In this document: in pieces, positions 1,672 to 60,636 of the stretch
Position numbering within the stretch: position 1 is the first letter of the stretch
Layout: the number at the start of each line of letters is the position of its first letter
Assembly: GCF_005780165.1 (NCBI RefSeq)
Contig: NZ_VAUV01000013.1
Coordinates: 124,001-188,000, forward strand
Reading direction: 5' to 3'
DNA: 64,000 nt
Source: Phragmitibacter flavus
GTDB taxonomy: Bacteria > Verrucomicrobiota > Verrucomicrobiia > Verrucomicrobiales > Verrucomicrobiaceae
Program-made: the position numbers and the translations under genes
The notes under the pieces: model-generated
Seen by the model: only the letters and a program-made list of their open reading frames with translations
Databases searched by the model: none
Told to the model about the DNA's origin: nothing

Positions 1672-3198
1672 CTAAAGTCCCAGCACCGCACTCGTCCACG
1701 CATGCATCTGATTCAGCAACTGCGGATTCTGCGACATCGATTCCCCCCTCGTCGGCACCATCGCCTTCACCTTCTCCTGCCACTCGGCCGACTCAAACTT
1801 CTCTTCAAAACACTGTTTGATCAGCGTCAGCATGATACTCACCGCCGTCGAAGCTCCTGGTGAAGCCCCCAACAATGCCGCGATGCTGCCATCCCCCGCC
1901 GCCACCACTTCGGTGCCAAACTGCAAAATGCCTCCTTTCACCGGGTCCTTCTTGATCACCTGCACCCGCTGCCCCGCCTCCTCCAATCGCCAGTCCGCCC
2001 CATCCACCTTCGGCAGGTAAACCTTCAGCGCCTTCAGCCTTTCCTCCGGTGACTGAACCACTTGACCAATCAAATATTCCGTCAGCGGAATGTTGCCCAT
2101 CCCCGCCGCAATCATCGGAATCAAATTGTCCGGACGGAATGAAAACGGGAAATCCAGCGGCGAACCGTTTTTCAAATACTTCGTCGTGAATCCCGCATAC
2201 GGACCAAACAACAACGACCGCTGACCATCAATCACCCGCGTGTCCAAATGCGGCACCGACATCGGCGGCGCCCCCACTGAAGCCTTGCCATACACCTTGG
2301 CATCATGCCGCGCCGCCAGCACCGGATTGTCGCACCGCAACCACTGTCCGCTCACCGGGAACCCACCGAAACCTTTGCCCTCGGGAATGTCCGACATCTG
2401 CAACAAAGGCAACGCCCCGCCACCCGCGCCGAGAAACACAAATTTCGCGCTCACCTTGCGACGCTTCCTCGTGGCCCGCTCCTTCACACTGACCCGCCAG
2501 CGTTTGTCCCGACTGCGCTTCAAATCCGTCACCACATGACCCAGATTCACACTCACTCCCGGCATTGATTTCAAATGCGCAATCAACGCCCGCGTCAGTG
2601 ATCCAAAATCCACATCCGTCCCGCCCAACATGCGCGTCGCTGCCACCGGCACCATCGGATCGCGCCCCTCCATCACCAGCGGCATCCACTCCGTCAACAC
2701 CTTGACATCCTCCGAATACTCCATCTCACCAAATCCCGGATGCACCCGCAACGCCTCCCAGCGCTTGCGCAAAAACGCCACATCCTTCTCCCCCGATACA
2801 AAACTGATATGCGGCACCGGCTGAATGAAGGTGTCCGGGTCCTTCACTATCCCCCGCTCCACCAACCACGCCCAGAATTGTCGCGACTCATTGAACTGCG
2901 CATTCACCTCCAGCGCTTTCGACACATCAATCGATCCATCCGCCTTCTCCGGCGTGTAGTTCAGCTCACACAACGCCGCATGCCCCGTCCCAGCATTGTT
3001 CCAACCATTCGAACTCTCCGCCGCAATGCTGTCCAAAGTCTCGAAAATCTCAATCGTCAGCTCCGGGTGCAGCTCCTTCAACATCACCCCCAAAGTTGCA
3101 CTCATGATGCCGGCTCCTACAAGAACAACGTCAGGCGACTGGGTAGATAAATTAACAACGGTGGAATTAGATGACTTCGAAGTAGTGACAGTGCTCAT
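1672..3198 (-). CDS. mqo: Malate:quinone oxidoreductase
   Basis: 508 residues from the ATG at 3198. The open frame extends 40 codons upstream, but that part lacks family sequence and there is no better start. Mqo oxidises malate to oxaloacetate at the membrane and passes electrons from FAD to quinone, an NAD-independent TCA step. Residues 24-36 carry the FAD dinucleotide-binding motif VVLVGAGIMSAT. It is followed by SSNGWNNAGTGHA and later GGTDVDFG, FGPYAGF and FGTEVVAAGDGS near the C-terminus, all typical of Mqo. Length is as expected (about 490-510). The gene stands alone, convergent with the DUF4412 gene and divergent from the SGNH hydrolase across about 290 bp that must hold both promoters. 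Confidence 0.95.
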   Translation of the reverse strand: MSTVTTSKSSNSTVVNLSTQSPDVVLVGAGIMSATLGVMLKELHPELTIEIFETLDSIAAESSNGWNNAGTGHAALCELNYTPEKADGSIDVSKALEVNAQFNESRQFWAWLVERGIVKDPDTFIQPVPHISFVSGEKDVAFLRKRWEALRVHPGFGEMEYSEDVKVLTEWMPLVMEGRDPMVPVAATRMLGGTDVDFGSLTRALIAHLKSMPGVSVNLGHVVTDLKRSRDKRWRVSVKERATRKRRKVSAKFVFLGAGGGALPLLQMSDIPEGKGFGGFPVSGQWLRCDNPVLAARHDAKVYGKASVGAPPMSVPHLDTRVIDGQRSLLFGPYAGFTTKYLKNGSPLDFPFSFRPDNLIPMIAAGMGNIPLTEYLIGQVVQSPEERLKALKVYLPKVDGADWRLEEAGQRVQVIKKDPVKGGILQFGTEVVAAGDGSIAALLGASPGASTAVSIMLTLIKQCFEEKFESAEWQEKVKAMVPTRGESMSQNPQLLNQMHAWTSAVLGL

Positions 3199-3455
3199 GT
3201 AAAAGGTTCTTGATCCAACCCCAGCCAGAATCGTGCGATCCCGGACGAGAATCTTCACCAAATTGCCCAACCATGACCACAAATCAAACCCTTCCCACGC
3301 CCCCTCGTGACCGCGCATGCAGAAATGCCGTGATTCTCACGAACCTCGAATTGACCACTCCCCACTCCCGCAACCTTGACGATTCATCCCCGCCACGGGA
3401 GAGTGCCTCCAGCATGACACTCACCACTCAATATCGAATCGCCCCTCCAAGGAAC

Positions 3456-3510: not shown

Positions 3511-4793
3511 ATCAGTTCCTCATCATCGTAACCCTCCTCCTGTCCTTTCTCCCCCTCGCCCTTCCCGCCCAGAAACCCGAAGAAAAACTCGCCCCCGCCG
3601 TCGAACTCACCCCTCGCAACGGCCTCCCCAACGTCCTCGCCAAACTCAACACCGGTGGCGAAGTCCGCATCGGCTATCTCGGCGGCAGCATCACCGCCGC
3701 CCCCGGGTGGCGCGTCAAAACCCTCGCCTGGTTCCAAAGCCAATACCCCAAAGCCCAAGTCTCCGAAATCAACGCCGCCATTGGAGGCACCGGCTCCGGC
3801 CTCGGCGTCTTCCGCGTCGGCGAACACGTCCTCAAACATCAGCCCGACCTTCTCTTCGTCGAATTCGCCGTCAACGACGCCGGCACCGACCCCGCCACCA
3901 TCCATCGCAGCATGGAAGGCATCGTCCGCCAAACCTGGCAGGCCAACCCCAACACCGACATCTGCTTCGTCTACACCTTCAGCGCCCCCATGCTCGAAGA
4001 CCTCAAAAACGGCAAGTTCTCCCGCTCCGCCACCGCCATGGAAGACATTGCCAACCACTACCACATCCCCAGCATCCACATGGGACTCGAAGTCGCCCAA
4101 CTCGAAAAAGACGGCAAACTCGTCTATCAATCCACCGACAAAAATGCCGACACCGCCGCCGGCAAAATCGTCTTCTCCACCGACGGCGTTCACCCCCTTG
4201 TCGAAACCGGCCACGAACTCTACGCCGCCGCCGTCATCCGCAGCCTGGAAAAAATCAAACCCATCGGCAAACCCGCCCCGCATGAATTGATCGCCCCCCT
4301 GCGCGCTGACAACTCCGAAAAAGCACGCCTCATCCCCATCCAAAAATCCATGCTCAAAGGCAACTGGACGCTGCTCGATCCCACCCAGGACAACCCCGGC
4401 AAACGCCACGCCGCCCGCGTCCCCTCTCTGTGGAAAGCCAACGATCCCACCGCCTGCCTCGAAATCACCGTCAACGGCTCCATCCTCGACATGTATGATC
4501 TCGTCGGACCCGACGGCGGCCAGCTCAATATCACCGTCGATGGCGAACTCAAAAAACCCGTCAACCGCATCGACGCCCATTGCACCTACGACCGCCTCTC
4601 CAGCTTCCGCGTCCTCACCGCCCCCGAAGGCGGACTCCACAAAATCAAAATCCAACTCAGTGCCAGCGCTCCCGACAAAAAGAACATCCTTTTCGAGCGC
4701 AACCGCCCCGATCTCGAAGCCAACCCCGCCAAATACGCCAATAATCATTGGTATTTGGGCGGACTCCTGCTCATTGGCGAAGTGCTTCCCTAG
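3486..4793 (+). CDS. Secreted SGNH/GDSL-family hydrolase
   Basis: 435 residues. The N-terminal residues MECRRYVG are encoded by a copy of the dispersed palindromic repeat. They supply the basic N-region of a signal peptide whose hydrophobic core (FLIIVTLLLSFLPLALPA) follows directly; no other ATG, GTG or TTG lies close to that core. SGNH blocks are visible: GGSIT with the nucleophile Ser68, Gly-rich GGTGSG near 101-105, the block III-like FAVND (Asn130), and DGVHP near 233-237 giving the Asp/His pair. Residues about 270-435 form a separate beta-rich domain. The family contains carbohydrate esterases and lipases; the likely target is an acetylated polysaccharide, but this is not shown. Downstream lies another repeat cluster. 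Confidence 0.85.
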   Translation: MECRRYVGHQFLIIVTLLLSFLPLALPAQKPEEKLAPAVELTPRNGLPNVLAKLNTGGEVRIGYLGGSITAAPGWRVKTLAWFQSQYPKAQVSEINAAIGGTGSGLGVFRVGEHVLKHQPDLLFVEFAVNDAGTDPATIHRSMEGIVRQTWQANPNTDICFVYTFSAPMLEDLKNGKFSRSATAMEDIANHYHIPSIHMGLEVAQLEKDGKLVYQSTDKNADTAAGKIVFSTDGVHPLVETGHELYAAAVIRSLEKIKPIGKPAPHELIAPLRADNSEKARLIPIQKSMLKGNWTLLDPTQDNPGKRHAARVPSLWKANDPTACLEITVNGSILDMYDLVGPDGGQLNITVDGELKKPVNRIDAHCTYDRLSSFRVLTAPEGGLHKIKIQLSASAPDKKNILFERNRPDLEANPAKYANNHWYLGGLLLIGEVLP

Positions 4794-4799
4794 CGAACC

Positions 4800-4956
4800 A
4801 TGGAGCGCCGACGTGTCGTCGGCAAAGGCAACCACTCACCCAGCGTCCCCACTCCGCTCCTCGATTTCAATCATCTCCTCCCTTTAGTCGGACCACCGAC
4901 GTGTCGTCGGTCATCAGTTCATCACCACATTAAGCCGACGACACGTCGGCACTCCC
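4800..4956. repeat. Cluster of three palindromic repeats, one inverted
   Basis: Copy 1 at 4800-4823 (ATGGAGCGCCGACG..CGTCGGC), copy 2 at 4887-4912 (GTCGGACCACCGACG..CGTCGGTC), and copy 3 at 4934-4956 in the opposite orientation (its reverse complement begins GGAGTGCCGACG). They fill the gap between the SGNH hydrolase and the Kef-type antiporter. The two flavours (GGAGYGCC and GGACCACC lead-ins) alternate here as in the other clusters. Confidence 0.85.
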
Positions 4957-51750: not shown

Positions 51751-54225
51751 TCAGCGGCCGTTTCCCAAAAGATGCCTCATCAAAAAGTTGGCGCGTTTCA
51801 TTTTGCCGAACGCTGTTTCTGCCGCGCCGTGACCTGTATTGATCACCGTCACCATCTCAAAATCCTTCCCGCCTTTCTGCAAAGCCCCCGCCAGTTGCAG
51901 AGTTGAAGCAGGATCCACATTGGAGTCCAACTCCCCTACGATCAGCATCAATTCGCCGCGCAGTTTCGACGCATGCACGACATTTGAACTGCGTTCATAA
52001 GCCTCATCGACGGGCCATCCCATCCAGGCTTCATTCCACCATATTTTGTCCATCCGATTGTCGTGACATCCACAGTCCGCCACGCCCACCTTGTAAAAAT
52101 CCCCATGATGCAACAAGGCTGCGACCGTGCTCTGCCCCCCGGCGCTTCCGCCATAGATACCAACCCGTTCAAGATCCATCCACGGACGCTCGCCCGCCGC
52201 AGCCTTTATCCAGGCTTTCCGGTCTGGAAATCCCGAGTCCGCCAAATTTTTCCAGGCCAAATCATGAAATGCCTTTGAGCGCCAGTTCGTTCCCATCCCG
52301 TCGATTTTCACCACCACAAATCCATTCTCCGCCATCTCCTGCATCCCCGACCACGCGTGGTGAGCCTTCGGCACAAAATGCCCATGAGGTCCCGCATAAA
52401 TTTCCTCCACCACCGGATACTTTTTCGCCGGATCGAAATTCGACGGCTTGATGATCGCCCCATAAATCGGCGTTTTTCCATCCCTGCCCGCCGCCACAAA
52501 CCGCTCGACTCTCCCCAACCCTAACTGGCGCAAAGCCGCATCATCGGCGCGGGCGATCTCTGCAATTCGATCACCTGTCTGTGCATCCCGCAGTTCCGTC
52601 ACCGGCGGCTGATCCACCCTTGACCACGTCGCCACCAATCGCTTTTTGTCGGGTGAAAACTCCACGCGCTGCGTCCCGTCTCCATCGGTCAACGCCACCC
52701 AATCCGAACCATCAAAATTCACTCTGGCCAGATGTTCATGATAAGGATCCTGCCCTTTCATCCCCACGATTTTTAACAACAATCGACGCCCCTCCTCGTC
52801 CACCTCCAAAACCTCGCGAACATTCCATTCCCCTCGTGTGATCTGCGTTTTGATCCCGCCCGCCGCCTCATCGATCAAATAGAGATGATTGAATCCATCC
52901 CGTTCTGAAGCCCAGATCATCTCACGAGTGTTCGCCAGATGCTTCAGAAAAAACTTCTGGGAATAATCAATGAACGTCCGGCTCGCCTCCTCATGAATCA
53001 ACCTCACCTTCCCCGACGTGGAATCCACGGAAAGCAACCGCATCACCTGATGCCCTCGCTGATTGTAAACGAATGAAAATGCCGATGAATCGGCCGTCCA
53101 TGCCAGTTCGCTGATCGACCACGGATTATCAAACCAACCATCACCCACTTTGATCTCGCCACGCCCCTCAATTTCAAACAATCGCGGTTTGGGCTGACTG
53201 ATCTCATCCCCTGCCTTCGCATAATCGACCGTTCGCAACTTCGGCTGCAGTTGATCCTTCGGCGAGGATTCCACCAGATGAATCTGACGCAGTTTTACCG
53301 GCTTCGCCCGAAATGCCACCAGGTGTTTTGAATCAGGCGACCATTTGAATGGACCCTGATAGCGATCTTCCGCCGCTCCATCGCGACTTAAAAAGATCAC
53401 CTCGCCTCCCTGCACCGGCTCAATCACCAGGTTATTCTCTCGAATCGACGCCCGCCATTGTCCATCTGGCGAAACATTTTCACGGCGCTCTTGCGGCTCC
53501 GTCACCTTGCCTGTGATTTTCGCCAGCCCTCGAAAATCAGGCGCACGCACCACCGCCAGTTCCTCCCCTGCATCATCCGTCATCAACCAGCGATGCCCCC
53601 CGAAGGTTTGCAAAACCCGCTCGCTCCCCGCTTCCACCTCCCCGTAGGAAACCTTGCCTCCATCACGCTTCAACCACCACAACTTGATCACCTCACTCAT
53701 CTCATTCCTCACCCTCAACAAGGTCGCCGGACCATCACGATGTTTCCCTTTCGCACCTTGTTTGGGAGCCTGTAGTATCAAGGGTTTTGGCGGTGTTTCA
53801 TCAACTGCCAGTTCCCCGCTTTGGACATCAAACACCCAAGCGCGTCCCAACGCCAGAAATTGCAACCGCCTTCCTTCCCGCCCCAGGTCCACTTGTTCCA
53901 GCGGAAGCTTTTTTGCCTCCACGGTTTTGCCCGTCGCCGTCGCCAGCAAACGCGCCAACAGGTCGTGATCGAAAGCCAGCCCCTTCCGTCCATTTATCAG
54001 ACCCACGGTAAAAAATTCATGCCCGTCCATCGAAGTGTCCAAGCGGCAGACCAACGGGCCCCCTTCACTTGACCAAAAACACCGCACCTCATCCCCCAAC
54101 ACTGCGCGCATCGCCGCTTTTTTCAATGCCTCCACCCTTTTACCCTTACCATGATCACGCAAGTCTACCTCCGCACCCAACGGCATCCCCCACATCATCA
54201 CGCCTACCCAGAGCAAAGTTCTCAT
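51751..54225 (-). CDS. Exported S9-family peptidase (DPP IV/prolyl oligopeptidase type)
   Basis: 824 residues. Signal peptide (LLWVGVMMWGMPLGA), N-terminal DPP IV-like propeller to about 560 (NVSPDGQWRASIRENNLVI, ISELAWTADSSAFSFVYNQRGHQ, IWASERDGFNHLYLID). The C-terminal hydrolase has Ser694 in GGSAGG, Asp767 or Asp771 in GELDSNVDP and His799 in NTGHGAAE. It probably releases dipeptides or degrades peptides in the periplasm. The gene stands alone. Confidence 0.92.
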   Translation of the reverse strand: MRTLLWVGVMMWGMPLGAEVDLRDHGKGKRVEALKKAAMRAVLGDEVRCFWSSEGGPLVCRLDTSMDGHEFFTVGLINGRKGLAFDHDLLARLLATATGKTVEAKKLPLEQVDLGREGRRLQFLALGRAWVFDVQSGELAVDETPPKPLILQAPKQGAKGKHRDGPATLLRVRNEMSEVIKLWWLKRDGGKVSYGEVEAGSERVLQTFGGHRWLMTDDAGEELAVVRAPDFRGLAKITGKVTEPQERRENVSPDGQWRASIRENNLVIEPVQGGEVIFLSRDGAAEDRYQGPFKWSPDSKHLVAFRAKPVKLRQIHLVESSPKDQLQPKLRTVDYAKAGDEISQPKPRLFEIEGRGEIKVGDGWFDNPWSISELAWTADSSAFSFVYNQRGHQVMRLLSVDSTSGKVRLIHEEASRTFIDYSQKFFLKHLANTREMIWASERDGFNHLYLIDEAAGGIKTQITRGEWNVREVLEVDEEGRRLLLKIVGMKGQDPYHEHLARVNFDGSDWVALTDGDGTQRVEFSPDKKRLVATWSRVDQPPVTELRDAQTGDRIAEIARADDAALRQLGLGRVERFVAAGRDGKTPIYGAIIKPSNFDPAKKYPVVEEIYAGPHGHFVPKAHHAWSGMQEMAENGFVVVKIDGMGTNWRSKAFHDLAWKNLADSGFPDRKAWIKAAAGERPWMDLERVGIYGGSAGGQSTVAALLHHGDFYKVGVADCGCHDNRMDKIWWNEAWMGWPVDEAYERSSNVVHASKLRGELMLIVGELDSNVDPASTLQLAGALQKGGKDFEMVTVINTGHGAAETAFGKMKRANFLMRHLLGNGR

Positions 54226-54368: not shown

Positions 54369-54519
54369 TTACTGCTCCACCAGCTCCACCCGACGGTTCT
54401 TGGCCCGGCCTTCTTCAGTCCCGTTCGTCGCCACCGGGCAATACAATCCGGAACCATGCGAGCGACGCGACCTGGGACGCATTGCCCCGTCCTGACTTTA
54501 CGAGTGGCATACTCACTCG
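54369..54519 (-). pseudogene. Truncated 3' end of an OmpA-family gene (copy of the 59638 gene tail)
   Basis: 54369-54461 encodes, on the minus strand, the last ~31 residues of the OmpA-family protein at 59638-60636 (SHGSGLYCPV...RRVELVEQ) with identical amino acids. About five bases differ, all silent, plus TAA instead of TAG. Beyond 54462 similarity breaks into scrambled pieces (GAGCGACGCGACC; GCATACTCACTCG at 54507-54519 matches the parent's next segment). There is no start and no OmpA core. It is the relic of a second, recently functional ompA paralogue. Confidence 0.85.
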
Positions 54520-54575: not shown

Positions 54576-55307
54576 ATGCTTGACCTCCGCTTTTTTCTTG
54601 CCGTCCCTACTATCTCGGCGGCATTGTCGGTGATCCAAGCCGAATCTCCCGCCCCATCTTTCAAGGTGCTGGAGCAAACACAAATCGTCGAACCCAGCGG
54701 GCGCAAAGTCACTTTCAAACGTGTGGAACCTCCTGTATCCCCGCCCCGCCCTGCCCCGGAACCGGCCCCCGTCATCAATCCGATGCAACCCTCCAAACCG
54801 ATGCACGTTTTGCTCGTCTCGTGCACGGTCTATCCCGGCCCCATTACTGAACTGCGCTGGGGTTCTGGTGACACCAAGCATCATGCTTTCAGTAATGTCG
54901 ATTTTTTGGACATTGCCGGTATCGGCCATTTTGAAACGACCGATTCCATTCACGGAGTGGTCCTTGGAATCGGCACCGACAAAGCATCGGCCCGTTCCGC
55001 TAATCAACCTGCGCTGCCAGCACTTACAGGATTTACCGGCAGCCACGCCCAATATCTTTTACTGCCAACCGACAAGAAACAAGCGCCGAATGATCCCGAC
55101 TTGGAGGCAATGGATGCCCTGCATGCATTTTACGATGCCAACAAGGCAGCCTTGAAACAGCAACGCAGCGAACGCGAAGCAGCTAATACGGTTCGCTTAG
55201 AGCAAGAACTGCTCCGACAAGAGGAGCCAAAACCCGACACCATCATCCATTTCTGGCCCATCAAGAGCCAAACACACCCCTCCACCTCTACGGAGGTGAA
55301 GCCGTGA
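54576..55307 (+). CDS. Exported unknown protein, first gene of a four-gene overlapping operon
   Basis: 243 residues. Signal peptide (FFLAVPTISAALSVIQA), a proline-rich linker (about residues 50-72: PPVSPPRPAPEPAPV), then a domain of about 110 residues (MHVLLVSCTVYPGPITELRWGSGD, FLDIAGIGHFETTD) and a charged coiled-coil-like helix near the end (LKQQRSEREAANTVRLEQEL). No known family recognised. Its stop overlaps the GTG start of the next gene (GTGA). Base composition is balanced between strands, unlike most of the window. Confidence 0.8.
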   Translation: MLDLRFFLAVPTISAALSVIQAESPAPSFKVLEQTQIVEPSGRKVTFKRVEPPVSPPRPAPEPAPVINPMQPSKPMHVLLVSCTVYPGPITELRWGSGDTKHHAFSNVDFLDIAGIGHFETTDSIHGVVLGIGTDKASARSANQPALPALTGFTGSHAQYLLLPTDKKQAPNDPDLEAMDALHAFYDANKAALKQQRSEREAANTVRLEQELLRQEEPKPDTIIHFWPIKSQTHPSTSTEVKP

Positions 55308-56269
55308 AAAGTCTGCCTCTCACCGTTCTGGTGAGCCTGGGTTTGGCCACCAATTTTCTGTTCAGCCAAACGCCCACCAATCCCAACGAAAGTTTTACGA
55401 TTTCAAATGAAGCCTCCACCGAAGCTTTCAGCATCTCGTGGTGGGGACGTTCAGAAAAAATCTACTATCTCCAGACATCCGAAAATTTGATCGATTGGGC
55501 TTATCTTCCTTTTCTGGAGGAAGGTGCCGACGAAACCCTCACTTGGGGGCTGGGCACAAACGCGGAACGCCAGTTCTTCCGCTTGATCATTAGGGATCAT
55601 CCTGGCGGTGATCCCAAACTATTTGATGGCGATGGCGATTCCTACAGCGACTGGGAAGAGCTGCTAGCAGGCACTGATTTGCGCGACTACTACAACGGGA
55701 TTCTCCCCACTTTGGAAATCATCGCAGGCGGTGGCCAATGGGGCAACGTTGGCGAGGTTCTGCCCATTCCTCTGTCGGTGCAGGTGTCATTTGGTCTGCA
55801 AAACGCTCCTGTTCAGTTTACCGTTCAGGGAGGCGGTGCCCTGCTTTCAGCCAATGGCACCAGCGACTGGAGTTCGACTCTCAACATCCGGTCTGCCATC
55901 GAATGGCCGACCGCAGCCATTGTGTATGTGAAGCTGCCCCAACAGGTGGGTGCAATAAGTTCTCTCCAGGCCAGCGTGACCGTCGCCGGACAAACCGTCC
56001 AAATTGCCACGTGGGCAGGAGTCTACGATCAGCAACTGGTTCCACCCACCAACCTTGTGGCCAAACCCATGGCCGCAGACCGCATTGATCTTACCTGGAC
56101 GCTCACCCATCCCGAACTGCCCACCACCGTCGAGTCGAGCCTTGACCACGGTGCCACCTGGGAAATGCTCGAAGTGGTGCCCGCAGGGGTGTCAGCGCAC
56201 AGTGTCACTGGCCTGGAAGAACACCGTCTGGTGAAGTTCCGCCTTAGAAGCGGAGGCACACTGCCATGA
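55304..56269 (+). CDS. Exported Ig-like/fibronectin III surface protein with calcium-type DGDGDS motif
   Basis: 321 residues, GTG start overlapping the previous stop. Signal peptide (LPLTVLVSLGLATNFLFSQ); an initial beta domain (YYLQTSENLIDWAYLP, as in many verrucomicrobial exported proteins); a thrombospondin-3/EF-hand-like DGDGDSYSDWEELLAGTD near residue 107; an Ig-like Big_1-type domain (VLPIPLSVQVSFGLQNAPVQFTVQGGG); and a C-terminal FnIII-like domain (PTNLVAKPMAADRIDLTWTL). There is no membrane anchor. It is probably a binding or adhesion protein acting with the next gene product. Confidence 0.8.
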   Translation: MKSLPLTVLVSLGLATNFLFSQTPTNPNESFTISNEASTEAFSISWWGRSEKIYYLQTSENLIDWAYLPFLEEGADETLTWGLGTNAERQFFRLIIRDHPGGDPKLFDGDGDSYSDWEELLAGTDLRDYYNGILPTLEIIAGGGQWGNVGEVLPIPLSVQVSFGLQNAPVQFTVQGGGALLSANGTSDWSSTLNIRSAIEWPTAAIVYVKLPQQVGAISSLQASVTVAGQTVQIATWAGVYDQQLVPPTNLVAKPMAADRIDLTWTLTHPELPTTVESSLDHGATWEMLEVVPAGVSAHSVTGLEEHRLVKFRLRSGGTLP

Positions 56270-58314
56270 ATCCCTCATCGATCAAAAACCTTTCCCTTGC
56301 ATTGGGCGTCACCGGGTTCGCCCTCATGCTGGCCTGCAGTTTCGCCACCCAGACTTCACCGCCAAGTCCCGAAGCACAAGCCATCCCTGCTGACTACCTG
56401 GGCCGCAACGTGAAGGTCGAGTCAAACGTCATCCGCGCCGGAGCCGCCAGCAGTGTCGCGAAGCATTTTGTGACGACCAACAGCAACGGACAAACGATCA
56501 CCACCTGGCGCAGGACCAGCAGCTGGGACCTTGGAGGCGATCCGCAAAGCAGTGAACCCGAATTGGTGGAAAGCTCGTCCATGCCCGGCTACCTGTCGAT
56601 TCCCGGCATGATCTCCGTGGAAACCATCCAAGCCGGGGAATATTGGCAGACCGGCATTCAGGAAGTCGTGCCGCCCCCTGAGGGATCATCAGGTGAGCCC
56701 CAAAAAATGGCCGAAGCCATCATGGCCGAAAGCAACGACAGCAACCCCAATAACAAATCCAAACGCTGGTGGCTAACTTCACAATACCTGCGCCTGCGAA
56801 GCGACACCCCGCTTTCCATCGACATCAAAAGACATTTTTTGGTCAGGATATGGGGAACCAGTCTATACAATATTGGCCCTTCCAACATGACTCATTCGAG
56901 TTTTGAAGAGAACCAGATTGAAAGCTACAAGGCGCTCACCCTTACCCTTCCGGCGGGAGCATTGCTCGGTGAAGAGCAAGTCGTTCCCATTACTGGCTCT
57001 GGCGACTATGGGCGTTGGGCCGACATTCACACCATCGGCTTTGCCATACCCGATGTCCCCAGCAGCCGACCTCACGGCGAAGTCCTCGTCCTTCCACTGC
57101 CAGGCGGAGATCCCATGGAGGAACCCATTGAAGACAACCCCTCCGGCCCTACCCCGTCCTCTCCTCCGGCAAGCCCTCCCCCAGGCACCGATTTTACCGA
57201 CCGGCAGCTTGCCCACGCCACCGAACTACGAGTCGCCAAACTGGAGAACTCCCTGCTTCCCCATCCAATTGACCCTGATGCGCCTCATGAAATTTGGCCT
57301 TCTCTTGATGAAGACTCCTTTCGCATTACCTTCACTGGTCTGAGAAGCGACAAGATACACTTCATTGAATTGGAAACCCGCAATGCCGATGGAACCGTGT
57401 GCGACGGCCCCAAAGAGATTCAACTACGCCCGCCATCGCCCGACAAGCCACATCTGAACTTCTGGGCTACTCCGTTGATGGTGCTGGTGTCCGACGACGA
57501 AGACAACCTGGCCCCCGTCGCAGTCCTGGCGAATGGCGTCACCCATCGCTATCCAGCAGGACATCCAGAGCGCCGCACCTACACCCACAAAGTCACTCTC
57601 GGGGGCAAAGTCGTGGTCAAAAGCCTGCGCACCGAAGGCAGCAGCGCGGTTCCTTTTGAAAACCTGGAACGCCAGGTGAAAATTCATGCTCGGTTCAACG
57701 CCAAAATCGGCATCCTCAGCGACGTGCATCCGAGTGTGGCAGCAGTGCGTCAAAAGGCTGAAGAAGAAGTCGTTGTTGCCAACGAACGCCTCGCACAGAT
57801 TGGAGCCGTCTTGGACGTGGAATACATCGACATTCCCCTCTCCTCAACCGGCCTGTCATCGTCAAATTTCTTTCAATCGGAGTTGCCCAATGCCCCCAAC
57901 ACCAGCGAAAGCAGAATCGCTGCCACCATTCCTACCGTAAAAGCCAGCGACATTCATGTCTTTTATTGCAACCGACTCAAAAAGCCTACAAACGACGGCA
58001 CCGACCGTGACATCAATGGTTATACCTTTCGGCCACCATCAGGCAAAGCCCACCGCGTCTTCATCAATTCAGTAAACCACACCATTTTTACCATGGTTCA
58101 CGAAATCGTCCATACCGCCGAAAAGTATCGTGGTCACTATGTAGGTTCGACACCGAAAGAAGTAGATCGAGACTACGATGATCCAACAGCTCTCCCGTAT
58201 AAACTCCAACACAATCTCATGAAAAGAGCAACGGATAACAACAAGCACCACAACTCCGGCAAACGCATTTTCAAAAAACAGGAAGAACAAATCTTCAAAA
58301 AAGCAACCCGATGA
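56266..58314 (+). CDS. Exported putative zinc metalloprotease (HExxH) of unknown family
   Basis: 682 residues. The N-terminus (LALGVTGFALMLAC) is a signal peptide with a weak lipobox, so it may be a lipoprotein. An N-terminal beta-rich region of about 470 residues includes a Pro/Ser-rich linker (about 285-308). It is followed by a metalloprotease-like domain: VVVANERLAQIGAVLDVEYIDI, DIHVFYCNRL, then HEIVH at 612-616 and GH at 623-624. HExxH is the catalytic zinc motif of many proteases, but the spacing to the next His does not fit metzincins. It overlaps both neighbours by ATGA. A fragment of a paralogue lies at 59286-59397. Confidence 0.8.
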   Translation: MNPSSIKNLSLALGVTGFALMLACSFATQTSPPSPEAQAIPADYLGRNVKVESNVIRAGAASSVAKHFVTTNSNGQTITTWRRTSSWDLGGDPQSSEPELVESSSMPGYLSIPGMISVETIQAGEYWQTGIQEVVPPPEGSSGEPQKMAEAIMAESNDSNPNNKSKRWWLTSQYLRLRSDTPLSIDIKRHFLVRIWGTSLYNIGPSNMTHSSFEENQIESYKALTLTLPAGALLGEEQVVPITGSGDYGRWADIHTIGFAIPDVPSSRPHGEVLVLPLPGGDPMEEPIEDNPSGPTPSSPPASPPPGTDFTDRQLAHATELRVAKLENSLLPHPIDPDAPHEIWPSLDEDSFRITFTGLRSDKIHFIELETRNADGTVCDGPKEIQLRPPSPDKPHLNFWATPLMVLVSDDEDNLAPVAVLANGVTHRYPAGHPERRTYTHKVTLGGKVVVKSLRTEGSSAVPFENLERQVKIHARFNAKIGILSDVHPSVAAVRQKAEEEVVVANERLAQIGAVLDVEYIDIPLSSTGLSSSNFFQSELPNAPNTSESRIAATIPTVKASDIHVFYCNRLKKPTNDGTDRDINGYTFRPPSGKAHRVFINSVNHTIFTMVHEIVHTAEKYRGHYVGSTPKEVDRDYDDPTALPYKLQHNLMKRATDNNKHHNSGKRIFKKQEEQIFKKATR

Positions 58315-59237
58315 GATTCTATCGTTCACAATACCCCGGCGTATGGCTGAAGTGGGTAGCCATGTGTTTTACTTGCGCCTGCTTGATCAGCCAATCAACC
58401 GCGTTCACCCCGCCTGAACAAACGGAAAAACTCGATCCGACTCTTATTAACGAGGTTTACGGACTTGTTGTTGGTGGCACCCCCTATACTTCAGAAATGA
58501 GCGAGTTAGAAAAAAATCCGGACAAAGCATACGTCAAACAGGCCCTCGAAAAACTACGCCAGGAACAACGGCGCATCAAAGACGAAGACATTCGCACGCG
58601 GCCTGGGTTAAAACCTTACATTTATTCTTTTTTGAGGGACCACTACAAGCCGCCCGATCGCGGCAACGAGGACGCTATACGGATTCTTAAAGCACTTGCC
58701 CTACGCGATGACCTCGATGTGAAGGATGTCGAGGCGATAAAACAGGAGGTGATCAAAAACCTTGGAACGCCATTTGAGGCTTTTAAATTTCTTCCTGCTT
58801 ACTTTCTGGAAGGAGCCGTCGTTGTGCTCGCCCGAGACTTTACCGAAGAAAACGAAGACTTGATCATTCGCGTCATGACGGACTACCCCTATTGGAATGC
58901 CAGTGTAGAGGCAGCACTTGTGTTGACAAATGCGGGAAGTGTGAAAGCATTACCTGCGATGGATAAATTCATCGAGCAATTGAAAGCCAAAAACGATGAA
59001 TCTGGAGCGGACAACATCAAGCGACTCAAAGCACGCCTAGAAGCGAAAATCGCTGCAGGTCAGGCGCTGACCCCTGACAGTCGCCCGCGTCTCAATTTTT
59101 CTCCAACTGTGGCATCCACGCCAAAGCCATCCAAACCGGCAACACCTTCCCAAAGCAATGAATGGTTTATCTGGCTGGCGGCAGCAATCGCTGTGGGCGG
59201 ATGCACTTGGCTGGTTTTTCGTAAGCTCCTAAAGTAG
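58311..59237 (+). CDS. Membrane-anchored exported protein with helical repeats, unknown
   Basis: 308 residues, ATG overlapping the previous stop. An N-terminal signal sequence (LKWVAMCFTCACLISQSTAF), a helix-rich middle of about 200 residues with HEAT-like character (DAIRILKALALRDDLDVKDVEAIKQEV, SVEAALVLTNAGSVKALPAMDKFI), a Pro/Ser/Thr-rich stalk (about 260-280) and a C-terminal membrane helix (WFIWLAAAIAVGGCTWLVF) with basic end. Type-I topology would hold the repeat domain outside the inner membrane. It is the last gene of the operon. Confidence 0.78.
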   Translation: MRFYRSQYPGVWLKWVAMCFTCACLISQSTAFTPPEQTEKLDPTLINEVYGLVVGGTPYTSEMSELEKNPDKAYVKQALEKLRQEQRRIKDEDIRTRPGLKPYIYSFLRDHYKPPDRGNEDAIRILKALALRDDLDVKDVEAIKQEVIKNLGTPFEAFKFLPAYFLEGAVVVLARDFTEENEDLIIRVMTDYPYWNASVEAALVLTNAGSVKALPAMDKFIEQLKAKNDESGADNIKRLKARLEAKIAAGQALTPDSRPRLNFSPTVASTPKPSKPATPSQSNEWFIWLAAAIAVGGCTWLVFRKLLK

Positions 59238-59285
59238 CCGAGACAGAGGAATGAGGCATTACAGTTTATGATGTCACGAACCCAA

Positions 59286-59397
59286 AATGCCGATGGGACC
59301 GTTTGCGACGGCCCCAAGGAGATTCAGCTACCCCCTCCACCGCCCGACAAGCCACATCTGAACTTCTGGGCAACCCCGTTGATGGTGCTGGTGTCCG
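59286..59397 (+). pseudogene. 112-base fragment of a paralogue of the metalloprotease gene
   Basis: Aligns without gaps to 57382-57493 inside the metalloprotease gene and keeps its frame (NADGTVCDGPKEIQL, DKPHLNFWATPLMVLVS). Most differences are silent; two change residues (R to P and S to P in the proline stretch). The sequence loses similarity abruptly on both sides and runs into tandem repeats at 59404. Within 59238-59637 nothing else resembles a gene. Confidence 0.85.
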
Positions 59398-59403
59398 TGC
59401 CGG

Positions 59404-59446
59404 GGGTCAGTCCGTGGGTCAGTCCGTCAGTCCGTGGGTCAGTCCG
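59404..59446. repeat. Short tandem repeat GGGTCAGTCCGT
   Basis: Units at 59404-59415, 59416-59427, a shortened CAGTCCGT at 59428-59435 and a final unit at 59436-59446. It begins 7 bases after the metalloprotease fragment and may mark a recombination scar. Confidence 0.8.
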
Positions 59447-59637: not shown

Positions 59638-60636
59638 CTACTGCTCCACCAGCTCCACCCGGCGATTCTTGGCGCGGCCTTCTTCAGTTCCGTTCGTCGC
59701 CACCGGACAATACAATCCGGAACCATGCGAGGCCAGACGCGACGCCGCGATGCCATACTCACTGCCAAGGGCTTTCACAATATGCGCCGCACGACGTTTG
59801 CTCAAATCGACATTGTATTCCGCCGATCCCTCATTGTCGGTGTGACCCACCACATACAGCTTCAGCGAAGGATTGGTCTTCAACAACTTCGCCACTTCTG
59901 CCAATGATGGCTTTGATTCCTCCTTCAACTCATCCTTGTCGGTATCAAAGTTCAGTCCATACAACGCAATGTGACCGCTCTTGTCCAGCGTCGACTTCAT
60001 CTCCTCCGCCTTTACAAACACCATCTTCTCCTCCATCACTGTCGGACTGATCACATCCAGTTGCACCAACGGCATTTTCTTCTTCAACACCCCGTCAAGA
60101 CGCGTCGGAATGATGCCGTCCGCATAAGACGTTACAAACAGCACATAATAAGTCGGCTCCGCATCCTTCGTTTTGGCGATCATCAACCGCTCTTCGTTCT
60201 CATTGTATTCGAGGATCTGTCCCAACTGCATCTTCGATGCGTAGTCTCCATAAGTCGGACCCGTCCAGCCATCCTCGTCCTGCCCCGGCGCATACACGGT
60301 TTCCAATCCCAGCCGCTTGAACTCATCGCGATAGTTCACAAACACCTCCAAGGTCGTTCTTTCAGCATCCGGCACCAGATAAGTCCAGCGTTCCACATGC
60401 CCCTCCAGTTTTAATGCCGATTCCCCAAAAGGATTGCTTTTGCCAAAGCTGCGTTCCTTCCCTTGTGGAGCAAAATACTCATCATATTTTGGAGTTTGAT
60501 GCGCGATCAACGTCGATCCCTCGTAGCGCTTCACGCCCTCAGGATCTTTGCCCTTGACCATGTCCGCCGCTGAAGCGGCCATCGCAAATGCCACCACACC
60601 AAAAGTAGCCACAACACACTGATTTACCGTTTTCAT
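59638..60636 (-). CDS. OmpA-family outer-membrane/peptidoglycan-binding protein with DUF4892-like domain
   Basis: 332 residues from the ATG at 60636, which begins a signal peptide (VATFGVVAFAMAASA); the frame extends 7 codons upstream. Residues about 30-200 resemble DUF4892 (LIAHQTPKYDEYFAP, RWTYLVPDAERTTLEVFVNYRDEF). The C-terminal OmpA domain (about 215-332) has LYGLNFDTDKDELKEES, LYVVGHTDNEGSAEYNVDLSKRRA and the terminal NRRVELV. It anchors to peptidoglycan non-covalently. It converges with the four-gene operon, and its 3' end is duplicated at 54369. Confidence 0.9.
   Translation of the reverse strand: MKTVNQCVVATFGVVAFAMAASAADMVKGKDPEGVKRYEGSTLIAHQTPKYDEYFAPQGKERSFGKSNPFGESALKLEGHVERWTYLVPDAERTTLEVFVNYRDEFKRLGLETVYAPGQDEDGWTGPTYGDYASKMQLGQILEYNENEERLMIAKTKDAEPTYYVLFVTSYADGIIPTRLDGVLKKKMPLVQLDVISPTVMEEKMVFVKAEEMKSTLDKSGHIALYGLNFDTDKDELKEESKPSLAEVAKLLKTNPSLKLYVVGHTDNEGSAEYNVDLSKRRAAHIVKALGSEYGIAASRLASHGSGLYCPVATNGTEEGRAKNRRVELVEQ

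Follow-up and report, generated by a model that had tools for sequence, protein, structure and literature searches.

A four-gene block of exported proteins in Phragmitibacter flavus, probably one allele of a polymorphic toxin-immunity operon of Verrucomicrobiota

The window analysed here, a stretch of 64,000 nucleotides (nt) from Phragmitibacter flavus (RefSeq assembly GCF_005780165.1, contig NZ_VAUV01000013.1, positions 124,001 to 188,000), contains a block of four open reading frames (ORFs) on the forward strand, here called genes 1 to 4, the third of which encodes a protein with an HExxH zinc-binding motif. An earlier note, made from the letters of this DNA, had described an overlapping operon of exported proteins; the four ORFs were confirmed at their coordinates, as were the three overlaps of 4 nt by which each stop codon runs into the next start (GTGA at 55304, ATGA at 56266 and ATGA at 58311). 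Such a run of overlaps is not due to chance, yet it is ordinary operon packing. Here we present the features of the block and its comparison with relatives, together with the evidence that it is probably one allele of a polymorphic toxin-immunity operon of Verrucomicrobiota.

54576-55307, forward strand: gene 1, accessory ORF of 243 amino acids (aa); conserved, exported, head gene of the operon family
55304-56269, forward strand: gene 2, putative toxin N-terminal module of 321 aa, a separate ORF here, with the motif WWG..YYLQTS..L and DGDGDS
56266-58314, forward strand: gene 3, toxin candidate of 682 aa; exported, with its own signal peptide and a metzincin-like protease at the C-terminus
58311-59237, forward strand: gene 4, candidate immunity protein of 308 aa; exported, with a helical body and a C-terminal membrane anchor
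59163-59219, forward strand: C-terminal transmembrane anchor of gene 4, by hydropathy

Hydrophobic, signal-like N-termini were found by hydropathy on all four products, in agreement with the earlier note; that of gene 3 includes a weak lipobox-like MLAC. The C-terminal anchor reported for one product belongs to gene 4, which ends in a hydrophobic helix at residues ~285-303 followed by KLLK. The DGDGDS module is likewise present, in gene 2, and the HEIVH motif lies at 58099-58113 in gene 3. The Ig/FnIII label given to gene 2 found no Pfam support; a FnIII/Ig-like sandwich is predicted in gene 3 instead. Searches of the four proteins against Pfam and NCBIfam yielded zero matches above cut-off, and YD repeats or an Rhs-associated core were not matched in genes 1-4; only sister operons have them.

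The block was compared with 387 genomes of the order, representing 50 genera. Gene 1 (profile A5) occurs in 99 of these genomes, often in several copies each, and is thus commoner than the protease domain (42 genomes). In G049, which belongs to another genus of the window's family, a gene 1 of 245 aa, a protein of 733 aa and a gene 4 of 287 aa follow one another in the window's order, between flanks unrelated to those of the window. The N-terminus of the 733-aa protein is matched by gene 2 (phmmer E 5.6e-21) and the C-terminal half by gene 3 (E 3.2e-15), so that genes 2 and 3 correspond to a single protein elsewhere; gene 2 also matches a 1249-aa protein of G463 (phmmer E 4.4e-9), and in most relatives a module of its type is part of the toxin itself. 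The position and layout of gene 4 are repeated in relatives as well (E 2.6e-8 against the G049 partner). The gene order is kept in G049, G463, G330, G603, UBA8040 and others, which answers the question of co-occurrence raised by the earlier note: the genes are conserved together, and its picture of an unclassified HExxH protease-like protein in a conserved exported set with a membrane-anchored partner is borne out.

A further 40 regions around gene 1 copies were collected and read onward. Of 39 related loci, 35 keep the 4-nt overlap between gene 1 and the next gene, an unusual degree of conservation. The proteins encoded next are related in their N-terminal part (WWG..YFLQ.S..L or LDTN.NGLSDLWE, followed by Asp-rich repeats) and diverse in their C-termini; a small gene follows. 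Among 35 complete downstream proteins, clustered by one linking method only, the first 150 aa fall into 1 cluster and the last 150 aa into 17, of which ~13 are real once split modules and frameshifted cases are set aside, and the small partner genes of the same 35 cases form 26. YD repeats and an Rhs-associated core are present in the proteins downstream of gene 1 in loci L138, L151 and L152, and in the latter two an ORF ahead of that for the Rhs toxin encodes the N-terminal module, which is likewise separate in the window. The L138 partner has no signal peptide and weakly matches Tdi1, an immunity protein of the type VI secretion system (T6SS); the match (E 1.5e-4) falls short of the cut-off. 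Pfam searches with ten other C-termini found after gene 1 gave no matches, and their toxin types are hence unnamed.

Two further kinds of C-terminus were noted in passing. Loci L142, L143 and L155 carry a second, co-clustered group with an HExxH motif (HEIGH...) and exported anchored partners, for which no match to the gene 3 protease profile was obtained. A 655-aa ORF of L128 has a different C-terminus swapped into the backbone of the G584 protease; by eye it may be caspase-like, with DGHSNFG followed further on by a Cys.

Exchange affects the C-terminus and the partner jointly. Between G584 and G591, gene 1 is 95% and the N-terminal 200 aa of the toxin are 92% identical, as against 21% in the C-terminus (110 aligned residues) and 26% in the partner; G584 and G712, which share the same kind of C-terminus, show 76% and 72%, respectively. 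Two proteins of G049, one with the protease (C95) and one with an Rhs end (C16), are 82, 68 and 36% identical in their first three 50-aa blocks and ~20% thereafter. The region before the C-terminus is 94% identical between the G330a copy and both G603C8 and G603C3; with the former, the C-terminus is 95% and the partner body 100% identical, with the latter 56% and 44%. The corresponding values for G330a and G330b are 80% before the C-terminus, 41% in the C-terminus and 31% in the partner body. Where the swap starts varies: identity drops gradually through the beta-sandwich in G603/G330 and earlier in G584/G591. In G330, the first pair is immediately followed by a second protease C-terminus that lacks both an N-terminal module and a signal peptide and has its own partner; the G330a copy is frameshifted.

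At loci with a readable downstream gene, that gene lies on the strand of the protease gene and encodes a small exported protein, in most cases of 200-325 aa. The partner was defined as the longest ORF downstream, and signal peptides and helices were judged by crude hydropathy; on this basis, an export-type N-terminus was found in 35 of 35 distinct protease partners (61 of 126 control ORFs of similar size) and a lone C-terminal helix in 30 of 35 (7 of 126 controls); the remaining partners are lipoprotein-like or lack the helix. Sequence divergence is far greater among the partners than among the proteases, and two of the partners gave weak HEAT-repeat matches.

Partner-like genes also occur apart from this layout. 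In L139:1-7175, a complete toxin-partner pair is followed by a 72-aa piece similar to the C-terminus of the L134 toxin and by a partner-like gene, the picture of a displaced module. The second protease locus of the window's own genome (L024, contig C3) encodes at 2701-3441 a 246-aa exported protein with a C-terminal anchor of the gene 4 type and apparently no toxin, possibly an orphan immunity gene; at the same locus an ORF at 3887-4903, between two partner-like genes, resembles by eye a transposase of the Y1 type associated with repetitive extragenic palindromes (REP).

The C-terminal domain of gene 3 was examined with an alignment of 30 protease domains (A9) and with AlphaFold2 (AF2) models, those of this domain and of gene 4 being based on four-row alignments. 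The relevant parts of gene 3 are as follows.

57262-57687, forward strand: FnIII/Ig-like beta-sandwich directly before the catalytic region, from the AF2 model; limits approximate
57688-58311, forward strand: metzincin-like catalytic region with HExxH, a later His and an LM Met-turn-like motif; start approximate
58099-58113, forward strand: HEIVH zinc-binding motif; H298, E299 and H302 are invariant in 30 of 30 A9 sequences
58135-58137, forward strand: candidate third zinc ligand, the His in GHY; a later His is found in every aligned member
58210-58221, forward strand: HNLM, candidate Met-turn; L337 and M338 occur in at least 90% of the 30 A9 sequences, a likeness at the level of sequence

A profile of the domain found it in 42 of the 387 genomes and 19 of the 50 genera, in host proteins very different in length and N-terminus. 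A search of genome contigs with the single gene 3 sequence gave no match, and the domain profile found three loci only in the same contigs (Verrucomicrobium sp. BvORR034, the Verrucomicrobiales metagenome-assembled genome (MAG) UBA8040 and a Spartobacteria MAG). BvORR034 has the protease together with a partner, but the gene 1 profile gave no match in its genome (G001). The PDB matches of the profile are nearly all metzincins (fragilysin and related proteins, ADAMTS, matrixins and serralysin), with E-values of 0.0019 or worse, and Pfam M10, M12B or M43 gave hits for a few members, none for the window's copy. At the level of sequence, metzincins resemble the family in HExxH, a later His and an L-M Met-turn-like motif; in contrast to their HExxHxxGxxH, the third His of the gene 3 family stands mostly 1-2 residues later, i.e., 11-12 residues from the first His, with the canonical 10 in three members, and the similarity is marginal. 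From its motifs, the domain is best described as metzincin-like, rather than as a proven metzincin, and would represent a new zinc-protease family.

The mean predicted local distance difference test (pLDDT) values of the AF2 models, 42 for the C-terminal domain of gene 3 and 47 for gene 4, are too low to settle their folds. The sandwich (model residues 19-160) has moderate local confidence, with pLDDT up to 81 in part, and its best structure match in VIA-align had a Z of 8.2 with a root-mean-square deviation of 2.6 over 86 residues; the predicted FnIII/Ig-like sandwich is a common fold and weak evidence. VIA-align matched the sandwich part of the gene 3 model only and gave no metzincin match, which is uninformative since the catalytic part is poorly modelled.

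The constant front end, taken together with the joint exchange of C-terminus and partner, points to a polymorphic toxin with its immunity protein. A constant N-terminus is joined to variable C-termini, the directly downstream partner changes with the C-terminus, and displaced toxin modules with a partner of their own occur (G330), the window keeping a decayed piece. On these grounds we regard it as probable that the block is one allele of such an operon; toxicity, immunity, target and transfer route are what we infer from them. Gene 1 would be a constant exported accessory or helper protein, and gene 2 the toxin's constant N-terminal module, which in the window is separated into an ORF of its own. 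Gene 3 would be the exported toxin, composed of the beta-sandwich and, as the variable C-terminal effector, the metzincin-like zinc protease. Gene 4 would be the cognate immunity protein, in which one C-terminal helix holds a helical, HEAT-like body facing the compartment of the protease. Export of the proteins from the cytoplasm would be by Sec, with genes 1 and 2 possibly aiding presentation or transfer, and the protease would cleave an envelope protein of a neighbour without gene 4, whereas in kin gene 4 would bind and block it. The site of action is suggested above all by the export of the partner; an exported and usually anchored partner would fit immunity against a protease that acts in the envelope.

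Several points weigh against this interpretation. The Asp-rich repeats may help to produce the single N-terminal cluster, and the partner statistics depend on the hydropathy calls and the choice of ORF described above. The metzincin assignment is weak (best PDB E-value 0.0019, no member above the Pfam cut-off), and across the catalytic part the AF2 model is of poor quality. The window's domain copy is 13-29% identical to the other members, which makes its own activity less certain than the pattern of the family. Gene 4 is too divergent for a good alignment and its AF2 model is also poor. Finally, neither the T6SS sheath (PF05943) nor contractile injection sheath families gave a match in the window's own genome, and no secretion machine was identified there.

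The closest known systems share parts of this arrangement. Excerpts from Zhang et al. 2012 (PMC3482391) describe polymorphic toxins with Rhs repeats and metallopeptidase toxins (Tox-MPTase1-5), which likewise join a constant N-terminus to exchangeable C-terminal toxins and have adjacent partner genes and extra C-terminal modules; the same excerpts list HEAT-repeat immunity proteins (with Tox-REase-7) and Verrucomicrobia. In contrast to the systems in these excerpts, the toxin candidate of the window is metzincin-like and free of Rhs repeats, its partner is exported and anchored, and the constant exported gene 1 is present. Tpe-Tpi and VgrG2b-PA0261 (PMC6899460) also combine a periplasmic HExxH protease with an adjacent, fast-diverging immunity protein; Tpe-Tpi immunity proteins reside in the periplasm, inner membrane or outer membrane, and experiments on VgrG2b/PA0261 showed that an immunity protein without its signal peptide loses protection. 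However, Tpe-Tpi toxins are T6SS cargo of thermolysin-like structure, often annotated DUF4157 (PMC6899460), whereas the window has Sec-type signals and a metzincin-like motif, and no T6SS sheath gene was found in its genome. Compared by gene order and export only, sitBAI of myxobacteria (PMC5562445) is alike in that an exported accessory gene overlaps the toxin gene and an immunity gene follows, the toxin being exported, with a conserved N-terminus and swapped C-terminus; SitA proteins differ in being lipoproteins whose nuclease ends act in the cytoplasm and which are transferred by outer membrane exchange. Searches of openly licensed literature for polymorphic toxins or YD repeats in Verrucomicrobiota turned up no description of the gene set, and the earlier remark that no described system with this gene order was recognised therefore holds for the exact set of genes, though not as to the kind of system.

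A wider proposal is put forward tentatively, as one with a real though less than even prospect of being right: that Verrucomicrobiota possess a Sec-exported polymorphic toxin system of their own, defined by gene 1 and the WWG/DxDxDG N-terminal module, with a route independent of T6SS and contractile injection and with envelope immunity. That transfer route would be an undescribed one, and the envelope-acting toxins would include the new metzincin-like family. The literature searched holds little on antagonism in Verrucomicrobiota. If the toxin-immunity interpretation is right, about one quarter of the sampled genomes of the order carry at least one exchangeable toxin operon marked by gene 1, a large set of toxin ends and partners awaits names, and a metzincin-like protease serves as a toxin that is paired with an anchored immunity protein. 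The question of delivery becomes directly testable through the roles of gene 1 and gene 2.

The edges of the block bear on its state in the window. Two flanking features, a copy of an ompA 3' end and a gene 3 remnant, were absent from the earlier note.

54370-54462, reverse strand: copy of the ompA-like 3' end in the upstream flank, 93 nt, 95% identical to 59639-59731
59639-59731, reverse strand: 3' end of the intact ompA-like gene in the downstream flank, the other member of the direct repeat
59247-59397, forward strand: remnant of another gene 3 copy, matching residues 360-409 at 76% identity; 119 nt match the middle of gene 3 at 91%

The 93-nt direct repeat around the block suggests insertion or recombination at the ompA end; the closest ompA relatives found for an empty-site comparison are at most 49% identical. 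The remnant after gene 4 looks like a decayed extra toxin module, and with the repeat it would mark the block as an inserted unit with decayed material at its edge. The same two features could also mean that the block itself is a decayed or inactive remnant in this genome, as could the toxin split into two ORFs, the frameshifted G330a copy and the fact that no secretion machine was recognised in the window's own genome among the sheath families searched. This is compatible with the toxin-immunity interpretation for the family, and for the window we consider it unlikely: the four ORFs are intact, signals, catalytic residues and overlaps are kept, and split N-terminal modules also accompany the Rhs toxins in L151 and L152.

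Less probable still is a protease complex at the surface that serves nutrition or the remodelling of the envelope, in which gene 3 would digest external protein, gene 4 would act as an anchored accessory or regulator, and genes 1-2 would be binding or secretion parts. At a single locus, a similar picture, with every product exported, tight overlaps and a membrane-anchored partner, would be expected of a secreted protease and its membrane-bound inhibitor. However, the same front end is found with Rhs and other unrelated C-termini and with other partners, and a nutritional protease offers no reason for the joint exchange of C-terminus and partner or for a partner that diverges faster than the backbone. 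The stable surface complex of fixed ratio suggested by the earlier note, with gene 2 as its binding module, was rejected, since genes 1-2 are constant, the protease/partner pair is exchangeable, and the two assort separately.

Verrucomicrobiota often live with eukaryotes. Even so, and although the PDB metzincin matches include the animal-directed fragilysin, an effector mainly against eukaryotes (protists, algae), with gene 4 shielding the producer from its own protease, is very improbable, because diversified, co-varying partners suit conflict among relatives better and because, in the excerpts from PMC3482391, it is systems without adjacent immunity genes that are proposed to act against distant organisms.

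Directly after the gene 3 remnant, at 59403-59445, lie three REP-like units resembling GGGGTCAGTCC (one exact, two with one mismatch). Both neighbours of the block are on the opposite strand: downstream the OmpA-domain gene (E 6.4e-19), upstream an S9 peptidase gene. The latter (51751-54225, reverse strand) encodes a prolyl oligopeptidase with a weak match to a VHL beta-domain (E 2e-4) ahead of the propeller.
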